Below are positions 285 through 46,770 of a stretch of 64,000 bases of DNA, one piece after another. The notes beneath the pieces were generated by a model, which was not told where the DNA came from, searched no databases, and saw nothing but the letters and a program-made list of their open reading frames with translations. This DNA comes from Nereocystis luetkeana (Eukaryota > Sar > Phaeophyceae > Laminariales > Laminariaceae), in assembly GCA_031213475.1 (NCBI GenBank), contig JARUPZ010000024.1:1302001-1366000 (forward strand), given 5' to 3'. The translations under genes were made by a program, and so were the position numbers. Positions within the stretch are counted from its first letter, which is position 1; each line of letters begins with the position of its first letter.

Positions 285-372
285 ATGTTCGTTTGGCGTG
301 CAAGTGTTTCCGGCTGTGACGTGTTGCTGCTTGTTGTTGTTGTTGTTGTTGTTGTTTTGTCCCTTGCGGTGC
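285..372 (+). CDS. Putative first exon: signal peptide of the monooxygenase
   Basis: ATG at 285 opens a frame reading MFVWRASVSGC, then a run of about 15 Leu/Val residues built from a TTG/GTT repeat, then LSLAVQALLHG. This is a textbook secretory signal with His right after a plausible cleavage site, as monooxygenases of this fold require. The frame continues through CAT-GGC at about 382-387 and meets TAA near 440. No GT donor precedes that stop in the needed phase; a donor at GCG|gtgcag gives phase 0, while exon 2 needs phase 1, and a GC donor after CATG would fit. The signal-like stretch could also be an accident of the microsatellite. Confidence 0.4.
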
Positions 373-3300
373 AGGCCCTGCTACATGGCACGCATGACGC
401 CAGCCGGCAGCTTCATTGCATACATATATATGACGCGTCATATTAACACTCCGTTTGTACGTTTCTCGACGCTTCTCCCTAACTACAACTAACTGCTAAA
501 AAACAGTGTACGGCGGTGGAGCATGGCCTCACTACAGCGCGTACCAGAGGAACGAGCTCGCCAGCAACGGAAACTACTACGAGCCAGACGCCATCGCCGT
601 CCGTCATGGGATATGCGGTGATCCGGAACAGGTGGGCAGCGCGTGCATGTGTGTAGCGTTGCGAAATGCTGCTGTATTGCAAAGTGCGTTGCATACGTAT
701 AATAATACGGTATAGTATACCTGGTAGGGTATAGACGATGTAACATCACCGTGAACAGGAGTAAGTATTACGGTCTCCCGCGATTTTTCGCGCGGTCTGC
801 CGGCTTGTTGAGTATCGCATGTGATGTGTCTCTGTTACTGTATCCATGGTAAACGATACCTGGTATATATGAGTCGAGCGACTTTTGGGAGCCAGGCACT
901 ATTTTTTTTTTTAATATTAACGACATTAATATGAATAGCGGCAATGAATACTATTAATATAATATTTACAACGTCGTAAAAGATTTATAGTACACGGCGG
1001 CTTGGTAGGTGGTCCGCGTGCCTATCAAGATCAATTTCGTGGGTTCAAGTCTCACCGAGTGCATGCTCGTGGCTTTTTCTTGCAAAAAAACAAATGGTTA
1101 GCGGATAGCGCGAGAAGAGCGTGAGTTAGCTATACATTCGATGAAAATCGACGAGCAGTGGGAATGCTGAACCCTATGCGCGACAAAAATTAAAGGCACG
1201 TATCGGGGGGGAGAAGGTCAGACACCTGTGACCACGGCTTGTCCAGAAGGTCGTCGAGGGTAAACCTCCTACGACTTAGGCTGGAAAGTGAGAGTGATGA
1301 TTGAAAAAAAAAAAAGTAATTAGTACTACAGCAGTAGTAATGTTCCCTCTTTAGTGCCGGTATGCGCCAGCCAACAGTAGTACCGGTCGGCTCAAAAATA
1401 GCGGCAACCGGGACTATGCTCCACTCACCGCCACACTAACTAGGCTAATCTCGTACTTCGAAGTTATGTACCCAGCGATTTCACAGGCACTCGTGTTATT
1501 ATGTGCCGTGCAGTCGGCACTACTATTACGGGGGGGCCATAGTTAATAGGACCAAGTATTGTTAGTAAAAATGGTTAAATATACCTGGTATTAATAGGTT
1601 TTTGTGTACACCATAGGTCCTCCGTAATATGAATACTCGACCGACGAGGTTTGTATTTGTTGTTGCTCTCACATTAACTCACAATACAATGCAGTCCGCG
1701 GTCGCAGGACAGGCTCCAATATATGTGTACCTGGTATATATATACGAGTATTACACTGCAGTCCGTGGTCGCAGGCAGGACAGGCTCCGATAACTCTGGA
1801 GTCGGAGAATAATACCCAAGATACAGTATAGATACTGCTGCAGCTCAAGCATATCTATCTACGAGTACACCTCGGACAAAAAAAAAACAAAAAAAAAAAA
1901 AGTGAGGTCCGCGCACGTACGTCTCAGGTACATGCGGCACGCTGTACAAATCGCCACAGAAACCGAGAAGACCGCATAATACCCACAAGAAAAAGACAAG
2001 ATCAAAAAAAGAACTCGCCGTCGAGATATCGAAAATCGAAAATCAAAAATCGAAAATCTAAAAAAGGGAGAGAGAGAACAAGATTTTTGCAGATTGCAGG
2101 CTCGCAAGCTATACGCGAGGGGTGTAGAACAGAGATAAGAACGAAAAACAAGCACACTTATACTCCGCTACCAAGAACACCAAGGAAGCAAAAAAGAAGC
2201 CACTACTACTGTTGTAGACAAAAAAAAAAAAAAAAAAAAAAAAAAAAGAAGAAGACGACGACGAAGCAAAGCAAAAAGAAAAACCAGCAAGCAAAAAGCA
2301 AAAAAAAAACGAAAAAGAGATATTGAGTATACCGGGGCCACTATTGTACTACTGTAGTTTTAGTGCGCGGCGAGTCCTTGACGGTACGGCAAGCCAGTGT
2401 CATCAACCGACATTTTTGGGTATGGCATGATGTAACACATGTTAAGCCCTTTTAGGCCTTGATGACTGCACTCCCATCGACTTGGAAGTGGAGTCAGGCT
2501 TCTTAGGTTTCTGTACAGCCCCTGCAGTGCTAAACGCATACCAGGTACCTGACAATGAGCAACAACTCCACACGGTAGGGGTGTTGCCTTATTATGAGCT
2601 ATGCCTTCTAGGGGTGGCGGCTTAAAAATTGCTCGCCTGAATCATGACTCCGAAGAAGAGCGTTCACGCAAGCCGACCAACTCCCAAAACAAAAATGCTA
2701 CACGTAGTGAAGGTGGACAGAAACCTGTCCACAGCTAGTATACCAACAATAATTCATCTGCGTCACATCAGTTTTGGTTTGCCGTTGAATACTGCCGCGC
2801 TTTTGATCTGGAGAGTTCTTCACTTTCTGTTAGTCGTTTACTAGAACAACGCTACGCATTGTCGGATGGCAAGCATGATAATACTAGTGGCTGACTGGAG
2901 GAGCTCAACCGGGTCATAGAAAAAAACAGCCAAAAAACGGTATACCCCCACCGTCGGATGAGTCTCAATAAACAACGCCGTCAGTGACACCACCGGTGCA
3001 GTGAGTGACATCAATCGATCACCACACCAGCACGGTCTGGCAGGCGTGCGTCAAAACGTGCACCAGGTACTACAGCGTAGTGAATCCAAAATCGTGGGGC
3101 GGGGTTCTGATTCTCGGATGTCTATTCACATCTATTGTGCTCCGTGGTTCGGTTCTGTTCTACTCTAGACTGCTGTGTGAGCTTTATCCTGCGTGCCATA
3201 AACCATAAAGACCGTTGAATTCGCACAAGGGTGCAAGAGTTTTTCGGTCATACATACTTGCTATCTTTCTCGACAATGGTAAGGGCGCTCACGTCGAACT

Positions 3301-6300
3301 CTACCGTATATTTTCGGAAGACTCTCGTCCAAATCTTTCCGAAAAAGCCTCCCTTGTTCGGTATTTTGGCAACCTTAACCTTCCCGTCCTGGAAAAATCG
3401 AGCGCTGAAACGACCGCACCACCTCTGTGCGGATTCCAAAACTATTTATTTACCGGATATATATAATATACCAGGTATATACATATATACCTGATAGCGG
3501 TATTAATCAGGTGCGATTCCCAAACGCGCGGAAACCTTTTTCCGTGTTTTTTCCAGCAAAACAAAAAATGATAGTTCCGTTGGATCTAAGTTAACTCAAT
3601 GTTCCGTCTTCACGTCACAACTTTTTGAGCATGCTGATAGGACGAAAAGAGTGAAAGTTTGGAAGAGTGCCGTTGGATATATTCTACACGTCGGACCGAT
3701 CACGATCTACAGCAGATCTAGACCATCCAGATCCTTACCTGCCGTTATCCTCTTTTAGGACCGCAGTCCCGTTTTGGGGGCAAATCACTTAAGAGTTTGA
3801 ATGGTTTGTCCCCCAAAATGGGACTGCGGTTCTAAAGGGGTTATGAAGTGTTGAGCAGTATGTGTATACTGTCAGGGGCGTCCGTGAAAAAGATTAAGCG
3901 ACACGCCACACCGCCAGAGGTCGGGATGGGAAACCGTTGCAACCGTTGGGATCGCATGATGAAATAAAAAAAAGAAGAAAAAAAGTATATTTTCATTTTT
4001 CACTTGGTTCTAGCCACCCCCCCCCCCCCCCCCCCGCTGTCCAGAGAAAAACAAATCTGTGACGGTTCACATTTTTGTTTTTACGGGCACCCTTGATATG
4101 TCGTAAATTCAATCAACCTCCAGGAACCGTGTCCTAGATCATGCAGACTTTGTGACTACATGTAGAGCTCCCTCTCGGCAACGTGAGCTTTATATATCAT
4201 ACCGGAGGAATGCGGCCGATGACCTGGGGATGGAATGTAGATGAGGAATAGGATATATAGCTACTTAAATGGAATGATGTGGGGAATGGAAATTGGAAAA
4301 CGGCTGGCGGGTAAGCGTAGGAGGAATACTGCTGATTTACGGAAGGATATTCGGTTTGTATTGGAATGGCATCTACGTTATATTGTCGAAGGCAAGCATA
4401 ATAATAATCATACACATCAGCTGTCCTGAAAAAAGTGGATCGCCAAGTGGAAATCGACTTCGAGCCCGAGGTGCGCAACCTTGCAGACCTACCCGAGGCC
4501 CACCATCTCTCTCACTCGCTTTCGGCCTTTCGATTCCCACAAGACGTCAAGGTAAAAAAAATAACTGCAAATCGGTGGAAATGTGAACGGCTAATCCCAG
4601 TGTGTATAAGACAAGCCGAAAGTTGTCACAGCAGGGAGGTAGACTCGGTGCATGGGTTTCCTTTTCTTTCCGACGTTTTCTTCTTTCGGGAAAGTTATGA
4701 GTGATCCATGTTGAAGATCATGCTGCACATTGTCGGATGGCAAGAGAAATAATGATAATAATATGGTGAGGCACCCACGAGGCAGTTACATAGTAAACTC
4801 AATGCTGTCTCTGGAAACTCGCCACACCAGAAATTAAACCAATTCATTGGTGCTGTTATCCGTTTGCAAGAAAATCCGCCTCTAAGCGGTTCTTAGTGGG
4901 ATGCAGCCCACCCTTCATGCGAATCGCCCTACACCTCACGGCGCTTCGCGCTTGGTGCAAGCAATGCCTGCCAGGTCGGTGAAACCCCGACGTGCTCCGT
5001 TCCGGCTTTGCAGGGATGCGAGGGTCTATGGTCATACGACTACGGCCATGCATGAGATCGAGCACATCTCTCCTATCGAGTACACCCCCCTCCTAATTCG
5101 ACGCTGCCCTCCAATTCAAGAATCTCCGCCTCACAAGCGGTTCTTAGTAGGAAGCAGGTCACCCTTCACGCGACTCGCCCAACACGTCACGGCGCTTGGC
5201 GCCCGGTGCAAGCAATGTCTGCCTGGTTGGTGAATACCCGGCGCGCTCCTCCCCGGCATCGTAGGTCTGCCTGGTCGGTCAAACCCCGACGTGCCCCGTC
5301 CCGGCATTGTAGGGATGCTAGGGCCAATGGTCATACGAATACGGCCGAATACGGCCATGCATGTCAGAAATACACCCCCTGCATGCATGACGTGAGTACA
5401 CCCCCCCCCTTCCCTCTCGACATGGTGATTTCTTCTTTTGTGCTCCGTGTATAAGACCGCCGAGGAAGGATCCAACCTCTTCGGGCAAGACAACTCGAAC
5501 TACCCCATTCTGGAGACGTACGCGGAGGGTTCGGTTATGGAGGTCAAAGTCGTCGTGTCTACCAACCACTGGGTGAGTTTAGCGCTAAACCACTGGTGCG
5601 TGCTGCATAATCATCACATGGGTATGGGTACTCGGGAAGAAAAACAAAAGGCGCCACGCCAGTTCTAGTTGTGAGTCCCAAACGGGGGGGGGGGGGTGGT
5701 CCTTAAACCGAGTAAAGTATAATTCTAAAATAACAGGTCGTCTTATTCCCTCGTGCAGAAATCTCGCCGTTCTTGGTCTGACCTTGGGAAGGAGTACTCA
5801 TCGGTTTTTCTTTTTTTTCGTGTTCTCTCGGTATGACCCTAAAAGGAAATCAGATTTTGGGGAAGAGGCTACGCAAAATTCGAGCGCGCAGAGTTAATGA
5901 CTGTCGCCACCCGCCTCGTTCACGGTTTCCGATATTTGCGCTGGTTAGAGAGATAAGAGAGCGATAGTATACTTGCTGGCATGACACTTCCAGAGTTTGC
6001 GATGACGAACGTTTATCTATCTCTTCGCGCGGTATCTCGTTTGAATTGAGTATATTTGTGCTACTCAGGGCACACGAAGTTGATTCAAACAATTGCAGTT
6101 GTCGGCAGATGTCAAGCCTGGTCGTTGCTTACAATCTACCAAGGTGCACATTCGCTTGGCAGGGTAACCTCGGTACGAGCAATCGCCTCACCCAGCGGAA
6201 ACCCTGCCTACTGGCGTTCACTCAAATCAGGTGCCGTGTCAACTACCCAAACAAGCGTTTTTTCGAACAGTATGTAGCCCGACTTCACCCCCACCCCCAC

Positions 6301-9300
6301 CCTTCATGCGAATCGCCCTACACCTCACGGCGCTTTTCGCTTGGTGCAAGCAATGTCTGCCTGGTTGGTGAAAACCCGACGTGTTCCGTCCCGGCCTTGT
6401 AGGGGTGCGAGGGTCTATGATCATACGACTACGACCATGCATGACATGAGTACCCCCCCCCCCCGCCCCTCTCCTGCACCCTCCGCTCCTATCTCGTGTG
6501 CCCGATTGAAGAAATCTGCCAAACGAGCGTCGTCTAGTCCCCCCCCCCCCATCCCCCTCCCTCCACCCCCCCCCCCCCTCCTCCCTCTCCTATTTATCTT
6601 TATGTTGTCCTTCTCCCGCACCCCCGTCCTCCTCCCAACCTGCCCCGTGTGTCCGATATATATACCAACCAGGGCCACCTCGAGTTCTTCATCTGCAACG
6701 CCGACGACATGACCGACCCAGACGGCGTGGTTACCCAGGGCTGCTTCAACATGCATCCGCTCGACCGTGCATCGGACGACGACGCCGCCAGCCGCATCGA
6801 TCCCAACCACGTCGGAAGGTACTTCCTCGACCCCACCTGCCGAGCCTCCGAAACGGACCAGTCCATGGCGGCCGGTGCCTTCACTGGCGACGTGGTTACC
6901 GCCCGCTACCAGCTTCCCGACGGGCTCACCTGCACCCGCTGCATCGTGCAAATGGTCTACTGTGAGTAGATTATTATTTTGTTTGTATATTGAGGCTCTT
7001 ACATCGCGACACGGCAGTGCCTGCTTCCGAACCGATGTTTTTATAAAGGATTGGTAGAGTATTGTCAGGGTATTGTGGTAACGTATCAGTAGGGTATCAG
7101 TAGGGTATTTGTAGGGTATTTGTTGTACACCCACATTGTACTGGAACCAAACTTCTCAATACCCCTCGAAACCCCCTCCACTCTTTCCCGGTGCGCCTCG
7201 CGGCGTCGGTGGGATTGCCTACCCTGCGGTCGGATGTTGTCCACGCGCCAAGTTGCCGATCACTCGCATGCGCGCACCAGTAGCGTAATAACGCAACCAT
7301 CGTGCATCCCCGACACCTCTCGACCCCCCCCCCCAACTCCGCTCTGCATTTCATACCTGGCAGCTTGAGGGAAGTATTGGTCGGTGTCGATGAGTCACAT
7401 GCGCTTGTAGCATACTATCAACCAACGCGACCACCATGCCTCTCATTATTTTGTTTATCCTCTCCCCCTCCACATGCACCTGCTGTATATAGCATGTAAA
7501 CCCAACCATCATGCCTCCCAAGACCTCCACGAAACCCCCCAGGGCTCCCCCCGTCTTGCTAAGTTCACGATCTCGCGACCCCCGCCCCCCGCCCCCATCC
7601 CCCTCCGCTCCCCGGCATGCACGTACCTTCCTCTTGGTCGAATCGATGGCGACACGCAGACACGGGCAACTCGTGCAAGCACCCCGGATACGACGAGTTC
7701 GATCCTTCTTCGTGGGACAGCGAGTGCGCCCCCAACACGGCAGACTGGATCAACGTGGGCGTGGGCATGTGTGGTGATGGAGATTCCTACCCCGAGGAGT
7801 TCTGGAACTGCGCCGACATTGAGATCACGTCTGGTGAGCGAGCGACCGCCCCAGGCGCGTCCGGCGGTGGAGGCCAGAATTCCACGGCGACATTTCTCTG
7901 ACCCAGACCATTGCTGACCGAACATGTCAGGAGACAGCACTTTCACCCCTCGACAGTCAGCAACGTTGTCTTGACACGCCTAGACTGAACCCAAAATACG
8001 AGGTTGTTGTGTCCAACAACCGGCCCTCCCCCCTTGACAGCGCACGTTTTGCCTTGCGTGTCATGTCTCCTGACATCTTTGTTTCAGACTGACGGGGGCC
8101 TTCTCAACTGACAACACTACTCAGCATTCTGTTTTTTTTTTTTCCTTTCCCCCAGTCGTTTTCGTTACGGCAGTAATCATGGCATCGCTTGTCGAGTAAA
8201 TTGCGCATTTAGCTTTTGTCAAGTCGGTGTTTGGGTGGGCTCAGAGAAGATGCAGGCGCGCCCCCGTACTGCAGTAGCACGCGCCTCGCCAGGGCCAGTG
8301 CCAATAGCCAAAACGCAGTAGACATACTGCAAATGCAGCAGACAGGCTGCAACCGCAGCAGACGTACTGCAAACGCAGCGGACAGGGCGAAAACGCAGCA
8401 GGCATACTGCAGGCGCAGTAGACGTACCCCACGAGGTATGTATGCATTCCACCGACGTATCTGCCCCGCTCCTCCTAGTGTCCTCGCGTGAAAAACGTAC
8501 TCTGTATAGAGCAAGAAAGAGTTTTACTTGTCAAATGCCCTCGTGTGAAAGCTGGCCCTGGATTAAACAACGCATCGCCCAATGGTGGCTGGTGGCGACT
8601 AACTGTCCAATGCGGTGTGTTCCAGATGAGCGACGCAGGGTTCGAGACGATGCTCGGAGATTTCCTTGTCATTTGTAGCGCAGGCCCCAGGATGCAAGAA
8701 CATCCCAAAACTGTTCATTTCACACCGCGACCGAAGTAAAAGCGAACCCCAAGCCTGCGGCACAAACCTTGCACCGCCCGCCGTTCACGCGCGATTTTTA
8801 GGCAGTACAGTCTTCGCCTCGCTTTGCACAAGTTAATTAGCTCAACTCCCCCCGCCGTCGCCGCCGCCGTCGCCGTCGTTCCCCCCATGCCCTCGCCCCC
8901 ATATACACACCGCCTACTCTACAGACGGAGACTCTACTCCCACTGCCCCGACCCCATCGACCACTACTTCCTCTGAACCTGAACCCACCCCTGCGCCCGA
9001 TTCCGAGGACTCAGAAGACGCCGCTCCCACGTACGAGCCCACCCCTGCGCCCGATTCCGAGGACTCAGAAGAAGCCGCTCCCACGTACGAGCCCGCCCCG
9101 GCGCCCGATTCCGAGGACTCAGGAGACGATGCGGAGCCCACCCCGGTACCCACCATGTACGAGGACTACACGCCGATGCCGGTCGGGAGCGACGACCCTG
9201 AGAGCGACGACCAGATGCCTTCGTCGTCTGCGGGGCCCGGGATGATGACCATGGCCCCGGCTACTTTCGCGCCGTCTGTTCCTGGGCCGGCGCCGGAGGG

Positions 9301-12300
9301 GGAGGACTGCGACGACCCGGTCGCAGCGTACGAGCAGGTGAAGGAGGGGAGATGCGGGCTGCGGTAGAGAGGGGTACGTAGGATACCTGAGTTTCCTGAG
9401 GCTCTTCACCTGAACATGGTATAGGAGCCCCAACCACCGAGGTGGAGCAATGTTGACAAAAAAAAACTACACTCGTCCAATACGCAATCGTGCGTGGCTA
9501 CGTACGGGTAGGCAGGCACATACTATCGAGTGTATAACCTTGAGAAGTACACATCGGCTTTCCGACAGCAATGTTGGGTACCAGGATATGTAGCTCCTCT
9601 GATCAGGAGATCGTGCCAGTGGCAAACAAAAAGGGTGCAAAAGTGCAAACCTCTGATTGCAACCCCCAACCGGAGCACGGCTCAGGGCGAAGAGTAGCTC
9701 GAGATCACGGTGTGGTTGATGTACGCCTGCGCCTTGAGCTCGCACCCACGGTGTGGTCGGTTGGCTTTGTAGTGCATAGGTGGCCGGGAGAGGAGGGGGG
9801 GGGGTGGGGGCATCCTTGCATATTGTGGGCATAAAAACAATTATTGTGGAGATATCAAACAACAAATGTATATAGCAAGCACACAATCAGGCATACTGAA
9901 AATTGAAAAGTTATCATGACACCTTTTGTGGAGTATAGTACGTCTGCCCTCGATTTCTCAGGTTAGCGCGTAAATAAAAGCCGTCGCGACTACAAGACCA
10001 GGTAGGTGATCACTCCCTTCGCTAGCCCTCTTTGCAACCACCTGGGGGTACAGATGCGGGGTACGATAGTCGCGCGCGGCACGTTTTTCCAAATTTAGAG
10101 AGCAGGCCAGGGCCTCCTCGAGCTTCTAGGAGAAGAATTTCTCGTGGTACAGCTTGGTACACAAAACCCATCGGTATTTCTCTTCCTGCGCTACGTAGAT
10201 ATACCAAGAGTTTTTTTTTTTTCACGTCATCCTGACGTTAGTATACGTATTACCGCCCCGATTTCTCTTTCCCCGGCCCGTTGGAAACCGTTGTGGTGGC
10301 CTAACATCGTCCCCCCGTGCTCCGTCTCGAAAGGGATGCGTGGTCAATGGTCGAATGACTAAGGGAGCAACAAATGAGTCCCCCCCTCTTTCCCCCCCCC
10401 CCCCGCCCTTCCCTGTTGCGACCCCGTGCGTTGCTGTTTCTGCTTCCCCTAGTGCGGTGGGGATGATTACGACGGCTCCACCTGCTGCCGTGCCGGATAC
10501 GAGTGCGAAGACGTCGCCGACTGCTACTCTGAGGTGCGTTCTCGTGAACGGCTCGTGCCCGGCGGGCGCTTTGAAGTTTCCCTAGGTTTTATTTGTGTTG
10601 TGTACTTTGTTCAGGCCGCTGAGGTTCCGCTTTGGTTTTGTGTAGTTGAGCCCGCTGAGGTTTCGTTAGGTTCTTCTTTTTGTTAAACACGCTGACTTTT
10701 TCGTCAAGTTCTGTTTGTTCTAAACCCGCCGAGATTTCGTTGGTTTTTAGCTTCGGTCAAGCCCGCTGAGGTTTTCGTTAGGTTTTGCTTTTTTGTTGTC
10801 TTGACCGCTGAGGTTTCGTTAGGTTTTGACTTGGTTGAATCCGCTCGTAAATAGACCGTCCCTTGTCCCACCGATGTTCTAGCGGCTGGCACCTCCGACG
10901 TGCGTGTGCGGCGTTTCTGACTAGGAACAAAGCCGTATCAGTGGCGAAAAAACAAAATCCGCCACCAACTGTACACCATTTTCGAGGCCCAGACAGGGGG
11001 CGGGGGGTGTACTGCAACCAACTTAAACCAAAACTAGAATAAAAATCGTTTTCCGTGACTTTGTCCAGAACTATCAGCCCGCTGGTACGTTTTTCATTTG
11101 AATTACCTTCATAGGAAAATATTATTATTTCTCTTGCCATCCGACAATGTGCAGCATGATCTTTAACATAGATCACTCATAACTTTCCCGAAAGAAGCAA
11201 ACCTCGGAAACAAAAGGAAACCCATGCACCAAGTCTACCTCCCTTCCGTGCCAACTTTCAGCTTGTCTACTCTATTGATGGCGTTTTCTCCTCTTTTGTG
11301 CACCCCTGGCCCTATGCACAACGGAGTATCACCGACTTGACGGGTTTATCCACCACTCAGGAGCACGTCGTAACGGTCTATACTGCGCGGTTAGCCGGAC
11401 AAACGCTGACCGAAATCTCAATAACTATGATCTACAACTTTAGCGTTGTGCTTGTACGTACATACACCGGGTCTGCTCGCGAACCGACCGCTTGGGCTTC
11501 TCGTCGCCAGATAAAGGGTAAATCCGACCCCCGTTACGTACCGCTGTGCACGCTCGTTCGTGCGCGCTGCATTTACAGACAGTGTGTTCCCTTGTTTATG
11601 CTTGGCAAGCCACCAATTCGGTACATGTTCGTGACGCCCTTACATGTGCTCCCTTGCTTGCTTGTGTACGACAGCCCACCGACCGACGGCCATGTATGAT
11701 ATCGAGCGTACCCCCCCCCCTCTATGCTACCAGTATCGCTGACCATCAATAGGCCTCTTGTCGATATTCTCCAACTTCCCCAACGGCCCACCTCCCCCCC
11801 CCATAAAACAGCGCTGGCTATACCACTGGTTCTCTTTTTCCAGTTCCCTTGACGCCTTGTTTGCTCGCTTTTCCCTTGTGCACGACAGCCTACCAACCCA
11901 CCCGACCCACCCACCCCTCTAAAAAACCGCTGACTAGACCAGTGTCACCTACCAGGTATTTACTATGCTCAATAACGACGAGTCCCTTGGCTTTATCTCA
12001 TGACTAGAGAAATGCCCACTAGTGTTCAGCTCCTTTCACGGGCTGTTCTTCGTTTTTTTCTCTCTTTTTTTTCCGTGCGACAGACTATCAGCGCACCCAC
12101 GCCTCTACAATAGCGCTAACTGGACCGCTTGCCTAAACAGTTCTTCAAGCCCCTTTCACGATTTGTTCCTAGTTTTTCTCTTGTGCACGGCAACCTGCCG
12201 ATCCACACCCCCTCTGTGCACGGCAGCCTACCGGCCCATCCTCCCCTCTAGACCACTCTGTTTATTACTTTTCAAAGCTCTTCCAACGACTCGCCTTTCT

Positions 12301-12676
12301 CTTACGCGCGACAGACACAACCTGCCGGACCCACCCACACCGCCTCTAAAATAACGCCGACAATTGGTAGATGCACTTGCCACCAAGTATCCAAGCTACA
12401 TGAACGACGTGATCTTCGTATATTTTGTTTCTCTTTTGCTCGGCACCCTGCCAACCACCATCTTGTCGCCAACTTTTTGAAGCTCATCTAACGACCTTCT
12501 TCCGCACCGATTTTTTTTTTCTCGGTTCACAGTGCCGCCCTGTCGACGATGCGTGCGTGGACGGCTGGGGGCAGTGCGGTGGGTCGGACTGGGACGGAGC
12601 GACCTGCTGCAAAAACGGGGGGGTGTGCCTGGAAAGGAGCGAATCCTTCTTCCAGTGTGTCCCAGAGCTTCCGTAG
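285..12676 (+). CDS. Secreted AA15-like lytic polysaccharide monooxygenase with two C-terminal CBM1 modules (8 exons)
   Basis: Exons read by splice sites and matching phases: 285 to about 372 (putative), 507-631, 5456-5572, 6673-6961, 7660-7833, 8925-9337, 10453-10533, 12533-12676 (TAG stop). Roughly 475 residues. Exon 1 starts at ATG 285 and codes a hydrophobic Leu/Val signal peptide followed by ALLHG, a possible N-terminal copper-binding His. Exon 2 ends in HGICGDP, exons 3-4 join as VSTNHWGHLEFFIC (second His of the copper brace), and exon 5 ends in FWNCADIEI; these match the AA15/chitin-binding type-4 fold. Exon 6 is a Pro/Thr/Ser/acidic linker with PTPAPDSEDSE repeats. Exons 7 and 8 give two Cys-rich modules with QCGG...TCC, the CBM1 signature. 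All junctions from exon 2 onward are phase-consistent. Known role of the family: oxidative cleavage of chitin or cellulose outside the cell. The substrate is not predictable here. The exon 1/2 junction is unresolved because no good GT donor follows the His codon. Confidence 0.85.
1002..1075 (+). tRNA. tRNA-like pol III sequence, probably a pseudogene or SINE head
   Basis: TGGTAGGTGG resembles an A box. At about 1048-1064, GTGGG-TTCAAGT-CTCAC forms a five-pair T stem with a canonical TTCRANY loop (B box). A run of T follows at 1074-1078, as a pol III terminator would. The seven bases 3' of the T arm (CGAGTGC) have no clear partner 5' of the D arm, so a functional tRNA is unlikely. It may be the promoter head of an unseen SINE. 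Confidence 0.3.
1526..1627. mobile_element. MITE family A, copy 1 (Tc1/mariner-like)
   Basis: Terminal inverted repeats TTACGGGGG...CCGTAA flanked by TA on both sides. The inner sequence (TAGTTAATAGGACCAA...GTAAAAATGGTTAAATATA) is shared with seven other copies in the window. It carries an internal insertion of the ACCTGGTA motif. Too short to code for a transposase, so non-autonomous; the superfamily is inferred from the TA flanks only. Confidence 0.75.
1660..1800 (+). repeat. Dispersed (TTG)n-CTCACATTAACTC repeat with a duplicated GTCCGTGGTCGCAGGACAGG core
   Basis: Starts with a TTG run and CTCACATTAACTCACAATAC, then the core twice (about 1,690 and 1,758). Near-identical copies lie at 37,580-37,660 and 61,395-61,500. 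The edge sequence recalls the TTCACATTAA ends of the long inverted arms at 38.1 and 42.0 kb, so the families may be related. Confidence 0.6.
2040..2330 (+). repeat. A-rich low-complexity stretch
   Basis: Short repeated ATCGAAAATC units (about 2,030-2,060) are followed by a long poly-A tract (2,220-2,246) and Lys-codon-like AAG/AAA runs. Open frames here are Lys- or Phe/Ser-only and have no coding character. Confidence 0.6.
3749..3840. mobile_element. MITE family B, copy 1 (piggyBac-like)
   Basis: A 92 bp near-perfect palindrome with ends CCTCTTTTAGGACCGCAGTC and GGACTGCGGTTCTAAAGGGG, flanked by the direct duplication TTAT (3,745-3,748 and 3,841-3,844). Other copies have TTAA. Termini starting CCY/CCC with TTAA duplications are typical of piggyBac elements. 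No coding capacity. Confidence 0.8.
4017..4035 (+). repeat. Poly-C run (19 C)
   Basis: An uninterrupted C homopolymer in the first long intron. Long G/C homopolymers recur across the window. Confidence 0.9.
4608..4755 (+). repeat. Dispersed repeat E, copy 1
   Basis: This 148 bp stretch (from GACAAGCCGAAAGTTG to GGCAAGAGAAATAATGATAA) recurs in inverse orientation at 11,123-11,268, both inside introns of the same gene. A short piece (CATTGTCGGATGGCAAGC) is also at about 2,856. No terminal structure was recognised. Confidence 0.7.
4864..5420 (+). repeat. Poly-C-tailed dispersed repeat F, two tandem copies
   Basis: Two copies (about 4,864-5,092 and 5,105-5,415) begin near CCGCCTC..AAGCGGTTCTTAG and run through GCGCTTGGTGCAAGCAATG, CCCCGACGTGC and GGTCATACGACTACGGCCAT. 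They end in GAGTACACCCCCC. The second has an internal duplication of the CCGGCAT-GTAGG block. Other copies or parts: 6,260-6,466, 52,890-52,992, 58,770-58,990 (minus), with weaker relatives at 10,316-10,400, 11,640-11,712, 14,372-14,500 and 21,985-22,070. Confidence 0.75.
6260..6466 (+). repeat. Repeat F, third copy with poly-C tail
   Basis: Shares CATGCGAATCGCCCTACACC, GCTTGGTGCAAGCAATGTC and GGTCATACGACTACG-like blocks with the copies at 4.9-5.4 kb. It ends ATGACATGAGTA followed by 13 C. It lies in the intron between exons 3 and 4 of the monooxygenase gene. Confidence 0.75.
8311..8431 (+). repeat. Minisatellite, about 21 bp unit
   Basis: Five to six imperfect units of the type ACGCAGCAGACATACTGCAA lie in tandem inside the intron before the linker exon. 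Units differ at a few positions, so the array is old or under slippage. Confidence 0.8.
10600..10850 (+). repeat. Tandem repeat, about 45-50 bp unit
   Basis: Five diverged units share CCCGCTGAGGTTTCGTTAGG followed by a T-rich spacer. The array fills the start of the intron between the two CBM1 exons. Confidence 0.75.
11123..11268 (-). repeat. Dispersed repeat E, inverted copy
   Basis: Reverse-complement match to 4,608-4,755, including the CTTGCCATCCGACAATGTGC end. Both copies sit in introns of the monooxygenase gene about 6.4 kb apart, so the pre-mRNA could form a long-range hairpin. Confidence 0.7.
11780..12360 (+). repeat. Diverged tandem repeat in the last intron
   Basis: Four related blocks (at about 11,808, 11,925, 12,103 and 12,345) share CCACNCCTCTANAA-AGCGCTRACT followed by a pyrimidine tract and a GTGCACGACAGCCTACC-like stretch. 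Spacing grows from about 120 to 240 bp, suggesting indels after amplification. Each block has a pyrimidine run before CAG and so resembles a splice acceptor. Confidence 0.55.
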
Positions 12677-29568: not shown

Positions 29569-30289
29569 GTTGATAGAAACGAGAGGCTGGAAAAACAATG
29601 TCCGTTTCGTGGCCTTAATGTCAGTGCGTACTGCAGCTGATTCGAGTATGCAATATTATACCTGTATACTGCTTGATACTTGTGCTGTACCTGGCATGTG
29701 GAGTGCCGAGTCCACCGCGAGGTTTCCCTTCTGTGATATTTTCGTACGAAAAGCTTCCCGTAGTTTGCGAGCGCAGGGGGGCGGGTGGATGGCGGAATGC
29801 CCTCGAAAAAAGATGTCATTGACGCATATTAGTACTGTTTTGCGCTGACTAAAACCTGAGCTTTTAAAGTGAAGACTATACGTAGCGCAGAAACCTGTGA
29901 CATGTTCGGTATGACTGTACTCAAAAGAATCATTTCTATAGGTCAGTCTCCGCTTTGTTTATCCAAAACAAGGCAAACCCACCGATTCCGATGAGGATGC
30001 GTAAGTTGACAGAGCAGCGATGGTTTTCAGACTCGAGTGCGGCTTTATGCCCATTTGATCTGTTTCGATGACCTGCGCTCTCTTTTTCGAGAGAGAGCGA
30101 CTCTGTTGGCGAGCCTGAGGAACGGTGCCAAAACAAAACACAAACTATAGAACACATGACGAGAGCTGAAAACCATCCCACGGACACACGATCGAACGCC
30201 ACAACCTCCCACACCCTTCGACCCGGTGTGCGCCGATGTTATCAAGAAGTTCATAATATGTGTGCTACCTGGTTTTACTACTTATTAAA

Positions 30290-34604: not shown

Positions 34605-34910
34605 TAATTCCCCCGCTACAAGTATAATTATGAAAATACGAAATACCTGCACCTTTTCGCCACAGGCACAAAAAAAGCAGCTGAAAAAAAGGTATGCCAA
34701 ATGAAAAACTCCCCGAGGTGAATTACTTGGCTCACCGTCGAAAAGAAAGAAGGAAGGAAGATTATTATCCTCGCTTTTCATACCTGCTGTGTGTGCTCGC
34801 TGTGCACGTACGAGCGAAGCAGTGGACGAATCGATGCCCGCCGGCTTTCGCAACGAGGAACCCATGGAGGGGTGACGCGATCAGTCCTCGCCAGGCACGA
34901 ACAACTGCTG

Positions 34911-35112
<202 letters not shown>

Positions 35113-38110: not shown

Positions 38111-41100
38111 ATGTGTGTGTTCTTCACATTAAACCGTTCTTTCTACCCGTCGACATCCAGCACAACCAGTGTCCGTGCCGATTCTTCAATCCTAGAAGAG
38201 ATACAAGTTCTGTGGTCACAAAGCTACGCCACAGAGATACTACGTTGCCACGTGTGCAGTGTGAACTGCAGTGGGCAATGCAAAGCCATGTCATCATACT
38301 AGATACGACAGGCACGACATACGCAATCTATGAAATAGTGAAACGAAAAGAAACAATCAAAGAGAAAACAAAAACAAGGTAGACAAATCGAAAAAGAAAA
38401 AGAAGAAAAATGAAAGCAAAATCTAAGAGAAGCAATCTGTCGTGCCCCCCCCCCCGCAGGCGAGGTGGCCAACACTTGAAAAAGAACGAGCTGGAAAAAA
38501 GAAGAAATAACAAAAAACACCACTGCTTGTGAACAGAGTAAGACAAAGAACCAAGGAGAAAGTAACAAGGAAAAATAACAAAGGGGAAATAACAGGCAGA
38601 CCAAAGCCCAAAGCACCCTCCAGGTGGCGGCAGCAGCTTGTGGTACGAGTAGTATAGCCAGGTTCTCCCTGCTAATCCGCCTGGTACCTTGCTACCCAGA
38701 CTGCCGTCTCCGCCCTGCGTTCGTCAACTATGCCCAGCCCCTTGGCGTCAGACAATACGAGCCGAGCAGAGCAGGTTCGTCTTCCAACCACGCCACACGG
38801 CTCCTTGAGTACGGCTTATCAATCAGAAAAGGAAGAGGAAGAGGAAAAATGAAATGAAAATCACGGAGAGTCAGCGCAAGAAAGAAAAAAAAAAAAAAAA
38901 AAAAAAAAAAACTAAAAGAGAAGACAAGGGAAGAAGACCACGTTCGAGCCAGCTGCACCAGTTGGTAGCACTAGTAGTATGGTCATATTCTACTTCCTAG
39001 TCGACTTGGTGCCTTGCTACCCTGTCTGCCATCTCCTTCCTACTTTCGTCTACCGCCGTTTCCCTTCTACCCCTCCTGTTCCCCCCCCTCTCCGCATTGC
39101 CTCGGTCGGGCTGTATGCCACTTCTCCTGTTGCCCCCTCCCCCCCCGTTCCTTTGGGCACCATCCACGGCGGATGCGCGGCGCTGTCTACTCATCTCAGC
39201 CTCAGCCTCGTGCCACCTCACCATGAACCGTTCGGCTGCTTCAAGGATCCCCCGGTACCACTTCCCCACCTTTTTGGCTGCAGTGGATCACAACGCGGTC
39301 TCAACTCCAAACACCAAGGGGGCAACTTCCGTTGACCCTTCGGTGGCTCGGAACTCCCTAAGGTCTTCGACTATGCATCTATGCCAAGTCTTACACTGTC
39401 CGCCTGGTCTCGGGTTCTCCCCATCAGCTATCGTCCCGAGCATTACCCGATTGGGTAATCGCTCCTTGCTTTGCCGTGCCACGCCCCCCGCAAAGAAGAG
39501 CCGCCGTTTACGAATGGTCGTTTCGATGCTCTCGCAACGTGTCATCTTGAGGGCCTTCGCGTACGAGAGGGTGGCATGGTCAGTATGAAGTCGGCGCTGG
39601 AAGCCAATGACTCGCAACAGGACTTGGTGGTGAGCCGTTCGAAGCTTGGCAAAGTGTTCCGCTCTGAGGGTCCACGTCACACACCCGTACAGCAGGGTCT
39701 CAATCACCTCGGCCTTCAGCATTCGGACTTTAAGGCTAAGGGGGGCGGTCGTCCTATCATACAACTCCGGGCCGAACCGTTTGAGGCATGCTCGCATGAG
39801 GCGGATCCGTCGGTCGATTTCGAGCAAGAGGTCAGCGTTTTCGTGGATAACGCCGCCTAGGTATAAGAACTGGGTCGTCTGCTTATACCTCTGACCTGCC
39901 GCTTCGATGACGAGCGGTGGTGCGAGGGTTGTCCGGTCTGGTGTTTGTAGGACCATTGTCTCAGTCTTCTTTTCCGACACCGTGAGGCCTGCTGCTTCGA
40001 AGACAGTCACGATGACTGTCATCATTTTTGCGAGCCCTTCAGCCGACTTCGAGACAATTCCTGCATCGTCGGCGTACAACATGCCCCATACAGACCTTCG
40101 CACGCACGCCAATGGCTCCTCCTTCCCTGTTCGAACTACTCCAGCTTCCCAGAGTTGGACCAAATCCCTTACAATGGCTTCGTCTTGGCTGAAGCGTACT
40201 AGTACGACGTGTAACGCAGCAGCGAAGAACACGTTGAACAGTAACGGTGATAGTCGCAGCCTTGCCGCAGCCCCTGCGTGACATCAAACCATTCCGAGAG
40301 CTCGCCGTCATCAGTACGCACGCGAGCCCGCATGCCATCGTGGAAATTACGGATAATTCTCAGCATCTTGGTTGGTACGCCAAAGCGTGTGAGTACCTTC
40401 CATAACAGCTCTCGGTCGACAGAGTCGTACGCTTTCTGCAGATCGATGAAGCACACGTATAAGGGGATTTTCCTCTGTCGTCCGAGCTCTTGCAGCCGGC
40501 GCACGACGAACAACATATCAATCGTTGATCGTGCGGGGCGGAAGCCGCACTGTTCCTCGGGGAGTAGTTCCTCGGTCTCGCAGTAGTTGCTGAGGCGGGA
40601 CGCGACGATTTTCAACAACACTTTGCCTGCGTGGGCAACAAGCGAAATCCCTCTATAGTTGTTGCAGTCAGTTCGATCCTTCTTTTTGTGAAGGACCTTG
40701 ATGATCGCATCTTTCCATTGCTGAGGGACTTCTCCTGTTAACCAAACATTGACAAGGATGTTGTGAAAGCGCTGGGCGAATGCCGGGTGGTCGATTTTTA
40801 GGAGTTCGACCGGGAGACCATCTGGCCCGACAGCTTTCCAATTCGACATCCCCTTAAGTGCTTCGGTCATCTCGTCTATGGATGGTTCATCTTCAAGCGA
40901 CAGTTTAGGCGGTCGCGGTGGCAAGAGGTCGATGATCGTGGGATCGAGTTTATATACAACTCGTTAAACTACAAAGACCAGCAGTGACGACGTGTATAAC
41001 AAGTACCGGTAGATACTATTCTGCCTCGTGAAAAACAATACCAGGAAAAAAACAAACTATGACTGCTTCTCTCGTGATGATAGTGTGCGCGCAGATCATG

Positions 41101-45156: not shown

Positions 45157-46770
45157 TCATTTGAGAACATACCAGCCAAACACAAAGAAAGCACAGAAAA
45201 GGACAAACAAAAAAGAACAAACAAAAAAGATCCAGTCCACCAAAACTAAAGTGGGTGACACTGGAAAAATATTACATGCCTGTTTCCCAGGGTCGAACGG
45301 GAAATCTCGCTTGCCGCTGCTGCCGCCGCTGCTGCCGCCGCTGCTAGTCCCCGCCCCCTCGTAATCCCCGTTTCCCCATCTGCCACCATACCCCCCCCAA
45401 ACCGAGCCAGATCCGTATTCCCAGCCACTCGGTGCCAGCCTCGCCCATATGAGTTTCCCCCGGTCGAAGGGGTACGTTGACCCCCCCTTCTGACCGGAGT
45501 TGCGCACCTCGGACACAGCAACACCAAGCTTCACGACCTCAGGCTCAGCATAACCAAGGCCCACCACCTCGGACACATCAACACCAAGGTCCACCACCTC
45601 AGGCTTAGCATCACCGAGATCCACCACGTTGGACAAAGCAAGACCAAGCTCCACCTCGGACACAGCAAGACCAAGCTCCACCACCTCGAACACGGCAACA
45701 CCAAGCTCCACCTCGGGCTTAGCATCACCGAGCTCCACCATGTCGGACAAAGCAACACCAAGCTCCACCTCGGACACAGCAAGACCAAGCTCCACCTCGG
45801 ACACAGCAAGACCAAGCTTCACCACCTCGGGCTTAGCATCACCGAGATCCACGACGTTGGACAAAGCAACACCAAGGTCCACGACCTCAGGGTAATCCTG
45901 CTGCAGCACAGACGTTACACGCGGCTCTTCAGCATCACAGAGCTCGTTCGGTGGAGGCTCGCGTCGGCAACTCCACACCACATCGGTTGAGCAGCTCGTT
46001 GCCGAGCTCGTCGCTGTCGGCTCCACCCGTGGCTGCTGGGGCGCCGGCGTTCCAGCCTGCGGCGTACTGTAGTAGTTCGGCGCGTAGACGACAGCAGGCT
46101 GGGCAGTGATACACTGCCTGGCCATGCGACCATGAAAGATGAAGTCGTCGCACACACTGTTGGGTGCACGGCAAATCACATCCCTATGCCCTCGGGCGCC
46201 ACACCGTGCGCACATGTAGGATCCGTACATCGACGCTGCTGCAGGCGGAGGGGACTCAGGCTGATACCACACGCGATCGGTGTTACCAGCCGCCCCAGTG
46301 CACCACTCCGAAGCAGTATGTGGCTGCCGCCGTTGCTGCTGCTGCTGCTGATGATGATGATGATGATAATTCTGGCCTCCACCCCAGCGTTGCTGCTGTT
46401 GAGGCTGAGGCTGTTGCTGCCCTCGGCCTCCATACTGCCGCCGATGATGCTGCTCCGCGGTGCCACTGTATTGCCGCTGCTGCTGTTGCTGTGGCTGTTG
46501 TTGTCCATACGACCGCTGCTGCTGCTGCTGCTGCTGCTGCTGTTCATACTGCCACCGCTGCTGCTGCTGTGGCTGTTGCTGTCCATACGACCGCTGCTGC
46601 TGCTGCTGCTGTGGCTGTTGTTGTCCATACGACCGCTGCTGCTGCTGCTGTCCATACTGCCTTTGCTGTTGCTGTCCATACTGCGTTAGCTGCGCTGGTG
46701 TGGCCCGCCGCCTCCATCTCGTCGTTCCTGCTGCGCATCCATATCAAGCAGCTCCTCCATTTGCGCCATA
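45157..46770 (-). CDS. Gag-like protein: Gln-rich region, zinc knuckle, Val-Glu-Leu repeats
   Basis: A frame starting MAQMEELLDMDAQQERRDGG (46,770) runs to a stop at 46,686. The main frame, open from 46,743 to 45,157, lacks an ATG at its head, so a frameshift near 46,700 probably joins them. The main frame reads YGQQQQQRSYGQQQPQ-type repeats and a His run, then CARCGARGHRDVIC (a perfect CCHC knuckle). Next comes CDDFIFHGRMARQC, a second knuckle with Phe and Arg in place of a Cys and the His. A repeat region follows (VVDLGVALSNV, VELGLAVSEV; about 45,510-45,890), then a Gly-rich stretch and a hydrophobic C terminus. In retroelements such proteins package the RNA. It lies directly after the 5' LTR. 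Confidence 0.7.

Follow-up and report, generated by a model that had tools for sequence, protein, structure and literature searches.

A brown-algal gene family predicted to encode AA15-type LPMOs with CBM1 modules

The window, a stretch of 64,000 bases from the brown alga Nereocystis luetkeana (contig C24, positions 1302001-1366000), likely holds seven of the nine exons (3-9) of a nuclear gene for a secreted, copper-dependent LPMO of the AA15 type, with a C-terminal pair of CBM1 modules set off by a long, flexible acidic linker. Exons 1 and 2 are likely to lie within 3.8 kb upstream; the window alone was thus insufficient, and the full gene model needed DNA from beyond it.

Results and Discussion

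Exon chain of the window gene

Seven exons on the + strand, spanning 507-12676, form a chain whose joined frame encodes an LPMO_10/AA15 domain, a linker, and two CBM1 modules. The introns between them are 698-4824 bases long; GT-AG borders were found at all six, and the phase agrees at all six junctions. Base composition is GC 0.56-0.68 (GC3 0.71-0.85) in the exons and GC 0.47-0.55 in the introns. Three paralogues on the same contig (g1, g2, and g4) show the same order of exons, the same phases and splice sites, and also the linker exon, and because such recurrence is not expected by chance we take the chain to be real. The original prediction of seven phase-perfect exons is therefore sound for 507-12676 but unsupported for its first exon, which was placed at 285; its counts of seven exons and seven junctions would imply eight exons, and the present model has nine. 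These are listed below with the evidence for each (in negative window coordinates, the base preceding window base 1 is counted as 0).

-3707 to -3529 (C24:1298293-1298471), + strand: likely exon 1; DNA conservation among paralogues
-119 to -16 (C24:1301881-1301984), + strand: likely exon 2; DNA conservation among paralogues
507-631, + strand: exon 3, AA15, YGGGAWPHY...GICGDPEQ, phase 1 in and 0 out; splice sites, tblastn, paralogues
5456-5572, + strand: exon 4, AA15, ends ...VVVSTNHW and bears the second brace histidine (mature His135); splice sites, 5msz alignment, paralogues
6673-6961, + strand: exon 5, AA15, GHLEFFICNADD...TCTRCIVQMVY, phase 1 out; splice sites, PDB match, paralogues
7660-7833, + strand: exon 6, AA15, TGNSCKHPGY...EEFWNCADIEITS, with Phe280 at the axial position and the end of the catalytic domain; splice sites, 5msz alignment, paralogues
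8925-9337, + strand: exon 7, acidic Pro/Thr linker of 138 codons, ending DPVAAYEQ at the start of CBM1-1; splice sites, counterpart in g1, g2, and g4
10453-10533, + strand: exon 8, body of CBM1-1 (CGGDDYDGSTCCRAGYECEDVADCYSE); splice sites, Pfam CBM_1
12533-12676, + strand: exon 9, last Cys of CBM1-1, then CBM1-2 (CVDGWGQCGGSDWDGATCCKNGGVCLERSESFFQC) and the stop; splice sites, Pfam CBM_1

In exon 3, 41 residues are identical in g1, g2, and g4. A stretch at 4408-4551 (VLKKVDRQ...) was rejected as an additional exon: it is out of phase, and the alignment to the solved AA15 structure 5msz passes directly from exon 3 to exon 4. By eye, a dispersed element (CGGCGCTT..GGTGCAAGCAATG..CGGCCATGCATG..) recurs in the introns at about 4880-5400, 6300-6440, 10300-10380, and 11600-11710, with a poly-C run after some copies.

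The join between exons 6 and 7 carries the connection of the two halves of the predicted protein; its support comes from the splice sites, the phase, and the paralogues. No homologous domain crosses the 7833/8925 intron, and the frame of exon 6 stays open as far as a stop at 7901, as would be expected if AA15 and linker-CBM1 were separate genes, the first with its end near 7901 and the second with its start beyond 7833. We consider this arrangement very improbable: the intron has a GTGAGC donor, a CAG acceptor, and a phase 1 match, a similar linker exon occupies the same place in g1, g2, and g4, and the linker ORF has no ATG ahead of the exon. Since both the splice sites and the linker exon are kept in these three paralogues, the CBM1 exons belong, as far as sequence tells, to the AA15 transcript.

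The 5' end of the gene

The exon that had been placed at 285 is not supported: none of the GT dinucleotides past its His could serve as a donor in the phase of the exon 3 acceptor (505-506), and non-canonical GC dinucleotides, at 388, 403, and 418, are the only in-phase candidates there. A GT alternative, 285-436 joined to 538, likewise found little support. It would use the donor GTCATA, and its product covers only positions 34-183 of the LPMO_10 profile, missing His1, with 51.8 bits against 64.1 bits for the domain with the upstream exons. Before the His of the 285 ORF stands A-L-L, in conflict with the -3/-1 rule of signal-peptide cleavage.

A search for an upstream His1 exon by the motif HG..P..SR, and a scan of 19 kb for a signal peptide plus donor, yielded nothing credible; the motif missed exon 1 because the true motif is HAYLMEPVSR. 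Comparison of the DNA of the five C24 copies revealed two more conserved blocks upstream of exon 3, which we assign as exons 1 and 2. Exon 1, for which the first of four possible in-frame ATG starts was taken, encodes a hydrophobic stretch to QPAEG followed by HAYLMEPVSRNFWATDAFQD, and exon 2 encodes SYPDINWCPHCFQSRGPAAVRARAEEHTDPEELA. The splice donors and acceptors are compatible, as are the phases (2, then 1), the last of which matches the phase-1 acceptor at 507. At g6, the second block and exon 3 are continuous, without an intron. The upstream exons give ...QPAEG/HAYLMEPVSRN and hence His1. The nine-exon product has 541 residues, or 502 if cleaved before His1, where a signal peptidase would be expected to act. 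The protein is probably secreted, in line with the secreted enzyme originally proposed.

Catalytic domain

The seven-exon protein matched Pfam LPMO_10 (1.7e-12, 48.8 bits, cut-off 23), and addition of the upstream exons extended the match to full length (profile 1-183, 2.6e-16), with profile position 1 on His1. LPMO_10 does not separate AA15 from AA10. Among the six PDB sequences found at E<=10, the sole LPMO was 5msz (TdAA15A, an AA15 of Thermobia; E 8e-10, and 4e-10 in a separate search), with an alignment beginning at mature residue 90 of 290, and the remaining five were XIAP and disintegrin chains. By its similarity to 5msz, the catalytic part is classified as AA15 over other LPMO families, which bears out the AA15-like domain of the original prediction.

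His135, in STNHWGHLEF, is aligned to APHIGFFEF of 5msz, and Phe280, in EEFWNCADI, stands opposite the Tyr of EEYRNCADI, which we take to be the axial residue. Both brace histidines and an axial residue, as sought for the predicted copper site, are thus present in the gene model, although the exon that supplies His1 lies outside the window, on its upstream side, and is not the one first proposed. Across the nine AA15-CBM1 loci described below, the second brace His and the axial-position Phe are kept at all nine, the broken locus g3 included, and an exon with a GHA[YF] start was found at eight (weakly, E 3e-4 to 8e-4, at g7, g8, and g9; not found at g6). His1 and His135 would be expected to bind copper and to support oxidative polysaccharide cleavage.

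The Pfam profile PF03067 (LPMO_10) gave zero matches when run exon by exon on the N. luetkeana genome. We attribute this to the division of the domain among exons and count it as a false negative, as AA15 exons do exist there. Relatives were found neither in IMG/VR nor in prokaryote genomes by tblastn (E<=1e-3).

Linker and CBM1 modules

The acidic Pro/Thr linker, originally given 137 codons, was found as an exon of 138 with the split codon included. It contains a tandem repeat at 8984-9128 with a 54-base (18-residue) unit, and one 25-mer from this repeat had no match in IMG/VR.

Pfam CBM_1 matched the seven-exon protein in two stretches (4.3e-13, 49.3 bits, cut-off 20.6), and each module also passes this cut-off singly (40.1 and 31.2 bits), so that both of the predicted CBM1-like modules stand. 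CBM1-1 crosses the 9337/10453 and 10533/12533 junctions and CBM1-2 lies entirely within the last exon. In the PDB, CBM1-1 matched the CBM1 of cellobiohydrolase I, and CBM1-2 those of cellobiose dehydrogenase, glucuronoyl esterase, xylanase, and endoglucanase. Searched separately, as had been suggested, the two parts of the protein therefore lead to an AA15 enzyme (5msz) and to CBM1-bearing enzymes, respectively.

The disulfide cysteines C8, C19, C25, and C35 (Cel7A numbering) are all present in both modules, with extra cysteines at C18 in both and at C31 in CBM1-1. CBM1 binding involves a flat aromatic face (positions 5, 31, and 32) together with N29 and Q34. The corresponding residues are Y5, A29, C31, Y32, and E34 in CBM1-1 and W5, S29, S31, F32, and Q34 in CBM1-2, so neither module is canonical throughout. 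Two of the three aromatics are present in each window module, and all three, plus N29 and Q34, in CBM1-2 of g1 and g4. The pair may nevertheless tether the enzyme to cellulose. An AlphaFold model of the last exon alone had a mean pLDDT of 59 and was set aside.

A family of AA15-CBM1 loci

A CBM_1 profile search of the N. luetkeana genome (465,085,209 bases in 1987 contigs; E<=1) returned 23 exon matches, all above cut-off; no match over cut-off was obtained in any of 14 control genomes. The matches were grouped into 14 places (C24 five, C3 three, C12 two, C35 two, C30 one, and C1 one), 13 of which were examined for AA15, the place at 2286 kb on C35 being the exception. Around ten of the 13 places other than the window gene (C24 four, C12 two, C3 three, C30 one), AA15 exons were sought by tblastn. 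They were found on the same strand beside CBM1 at g1-g4 (C24), g6 (C12), g7 and g8 (C3), and g9 (C30), giving nine loci with the window gene, g5; this count is a lower bound, since AA15 was sought near CBM1 places. No convincing AA15 exon was seen within 1.5 kb of the CBM1 places at 142 kb on C35 and 16739 kb on C1. The CBM1 pairs at C12:8971542-8973049 and C3:17236889-17239262 had no AA15 exon in the stretches fetched and are either CBM1-only genes or fragments.

Seven of the nine loci (g1-g7) have two CBM1 exons, and g8 and g9 a single one. The splice-site check covered g1, g2, g4, and g5; the AA15-CBM1 join at g6-g9 is by order and strand. In g1, g2, and g4, the linker exon between AA15 and CBM1 begins and ends much as in the window gene. 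The filter that detected these linkers did not detect one at g6, where the distance from AA15 to CBM1 spans 12.8 kb. Five copies, one of them broken, lie within 115 kb on C24. The broken copy looks like a pseudogene:

C24:1232095-1239977, - strand: g3 (L026-L027), decayed sister copy; in-frame stops and frame breaks

Its neighbors g1 and g2 (C24:1199886-1224565, L023-L025) are arranged head to head, with about 11 kb between the first exons of the two, and their linker exon and adjoining intron appear near-identical by eye, perhaps through recent exchange between inverted copies.

Among the six pairs formed by g1, g2, g4, and g5, Ka/Ks (Nei-Gojobori, linker excluded) was 0.04-0.10 for the AA15 exons (293 codons) and 0.08-0.18 for the CBM1 exons (74 codons), the latter with Ks above 1 in the three pairs that include g5. 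The AA15 values among these four copies point to purifying selection and hence to function. A non-catalytic LPMO-like wall protein or a decaying copy, as might be suspected with g3 broken in the same cluster and a binding aromatic present in g1 and g4 lost from the window CBM1-2, is accordingly improbable in our judgment: the window gene retains both brace positions and the Phe, and its AA15 exons have Ka/Ks of 0.08-0.10 against g1, g2, and g4.

Host genome

CBM1 is known chiefly from fungi and oomycetes. The window contig has no light-harvesting match, so a fungal or oomycete contaminant, or a recent transfer, had to be weighed. Across the genome, 68 exon matches to PF00504, a light-harvesting family, were found, and two of the CBM1 contigs (C3 and C35) are among those that carry them. 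The window contig is 9.97 Mb long, and the CBM1 places are spread over six contigs of 5-22 Mb. Introns of 0.7-4.8 kb, as in the window gene, are not typical of oomycetes. Contamination or recent transfer is on this evidence extremely improbable, even though a 2012 survey, in the excerpts available, reports no CBM1 gene in Ectocarpus or diatoms (PMC3532174). Of the light-harvesting proteins, L044 was searched, and its best match, along the full length of the query, was the FCP17 chain of PDB 9YGV (364 bits, about 92% identity, 15 differences in 179 residues), a structure assigned in the accessible text to the giant kelp Macrocystis pyrifera (PMC13219633); this points to a brown alga. The genome had been described as non-fungal-looking, and both the presence of light-harvesting genes and this best match agree.

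Other features of the window

A U3 snoRNA at 29911-30123 (+ strand) is a full-length match to RF00012 (51.5 bits, gathering 34) and the only Rfam hit in the window at the gathering threshold. Pfam was run on 10 of the 78 window ORFs (>=130 codons), and RVT_1 was above cut-off in two, with nothing else above. Two overlapping ORFs at 39291-40963 (- strand) jointly cover RVT_1 (positions 2-123 and 124-202) and probably represent a LINE-like element whose frame is broken. A CTG trinucleotide array occupies 34905-35111 (69 copies, 96% matches). A Gln-rich open frame of 528 codons at 45160-46743 (- strand) has a zinc-knuckle-like CARCGARGHRDVIC by eye and no Pfam match at E<=0.1.

Possible function

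Brown-algal walls contain cellulose. In the mature enzyme, cleaved before His1, His1 and His135 would hold copper, and the AA15 domain could then cleave a crystalline beta-1,4-glycan oxidatively. The CBM1 pair, which is our reason for proposing cellulose as the substrate, would tether the catalytic face to it, and the acidic linker would space the two parts flexibly. Cellulose microfibrils of the alga itself would thereby be loosened or remodelled locally by oxidation as it grows or reproduces. We regard such remodelling of the alga's own wall as the most likely role, at about even probability. That brown algae more widely loosen their own microfibrils oxidatively, through a locally expanded family of wall-anchored AA15-(CBM1)2 enzymes, is a tentative proposal that we hold with less confidence; if true, it would give these algae, besides the remodelling of alginate, another means of making the wall extensible, and the idea that CBM1 is missing from brown algae would need revision.

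As the main alternative, the enzyme could act in defence on the chitin of epibionts, grazers, or pathogens, with CBM1 providing a general affinity for crystalline polysaccharides. The axial-position Phe is shared with AaAA15A, an oomycete AA15 active on chitin, and the passages available on that enzyme suggest a role for this Phe in chitin degradation by AA15s (PMC8393829). Local tandem expansion, here five copies in 115 kb, may also be taken as common in interaction genes, and each window CBM1 keeps just two of the three binding aromatics. Against this, the two CBM1s are related to those of cellulose- and wall-degrading enzymes, and the pairs measured are under purifying selection. A chitin-directed role is in our view rather unlikely, and remodelling of wall cellulose remains the preferred reading. 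Whether in growth or in defence, the nine AA15-CBM1 loci are specific candidates for genes that modify cellulose in seaweed, and finding CBM1 enzymes as a family in a brown alga has some interest given the 2012 survey without CBM1 in Ectocarpus (PMC3532174, as excerpted).

Comparison with known systems

The architecture itself is not new, contrary to the original prediction's hint of an undescribed fusion. The available text of PMC5823890 includes Phaeophyceae among AA15 carriers and names CBM1 among AA15 fusion partners, and a brown-algal AA15-CBM1 protein may already appear in its supplementary architecture figure. Our full-text literature searches, of partial coverage, gave no title or abstract on a brown-algal AA15-CBM1 gene among the matches listed. 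In the accessible portions of two reviews, AA15 is paired with GH, WSC, or CBM14 parts (PMC8615602, PMC10154629). A 2024 survey of brown-algal extracellular-matrix genes does not use the terms LPMO, cellulase, or chitin in its main text, as far as available (PMC11468063).

The fungal GH61 (AA9)-CBM1 enzymes and the oomycete CBEL (CBM1-PAN) share CBM1 as a cellulose-binding part, and CBEL is tied in the excerpts to the organism's own wall (PMC3532174). The fungal enzymes, however, use another catalytic family (AA9), and CBEL has no catalytic domain. TdAA15A (5msz, PMC5823890) is the best solved relative of the window catalytic domain, but it has Tyr at the position of Phe280 and lacks about 25 residues ahead of EEFWNC. 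The T. domestica AA15 sequences, as given in the parts available, consist of the catalytic domain alone (PMC5823890), whereas the window protein carries a linker and CBM1s. AA15s of Aphanomyces astaci are described in the accessible text as having a signal peptide and His brace, and AaAA15A as having an axial Phe (PMC8393829). The closest likeness in architecture is to the Saprolegniales, where, according to the same portions of that study, more than half of the AA15s in Achlya hypogyna, Saprolegnia diclina, and S. parasitica are fused to CBM1 (PMC8393829). The genes described here differ from those in belonging to a photosynthetic brown alga and in their long introns, and perhaps in having two CBM1 exons at seven of nine loci.
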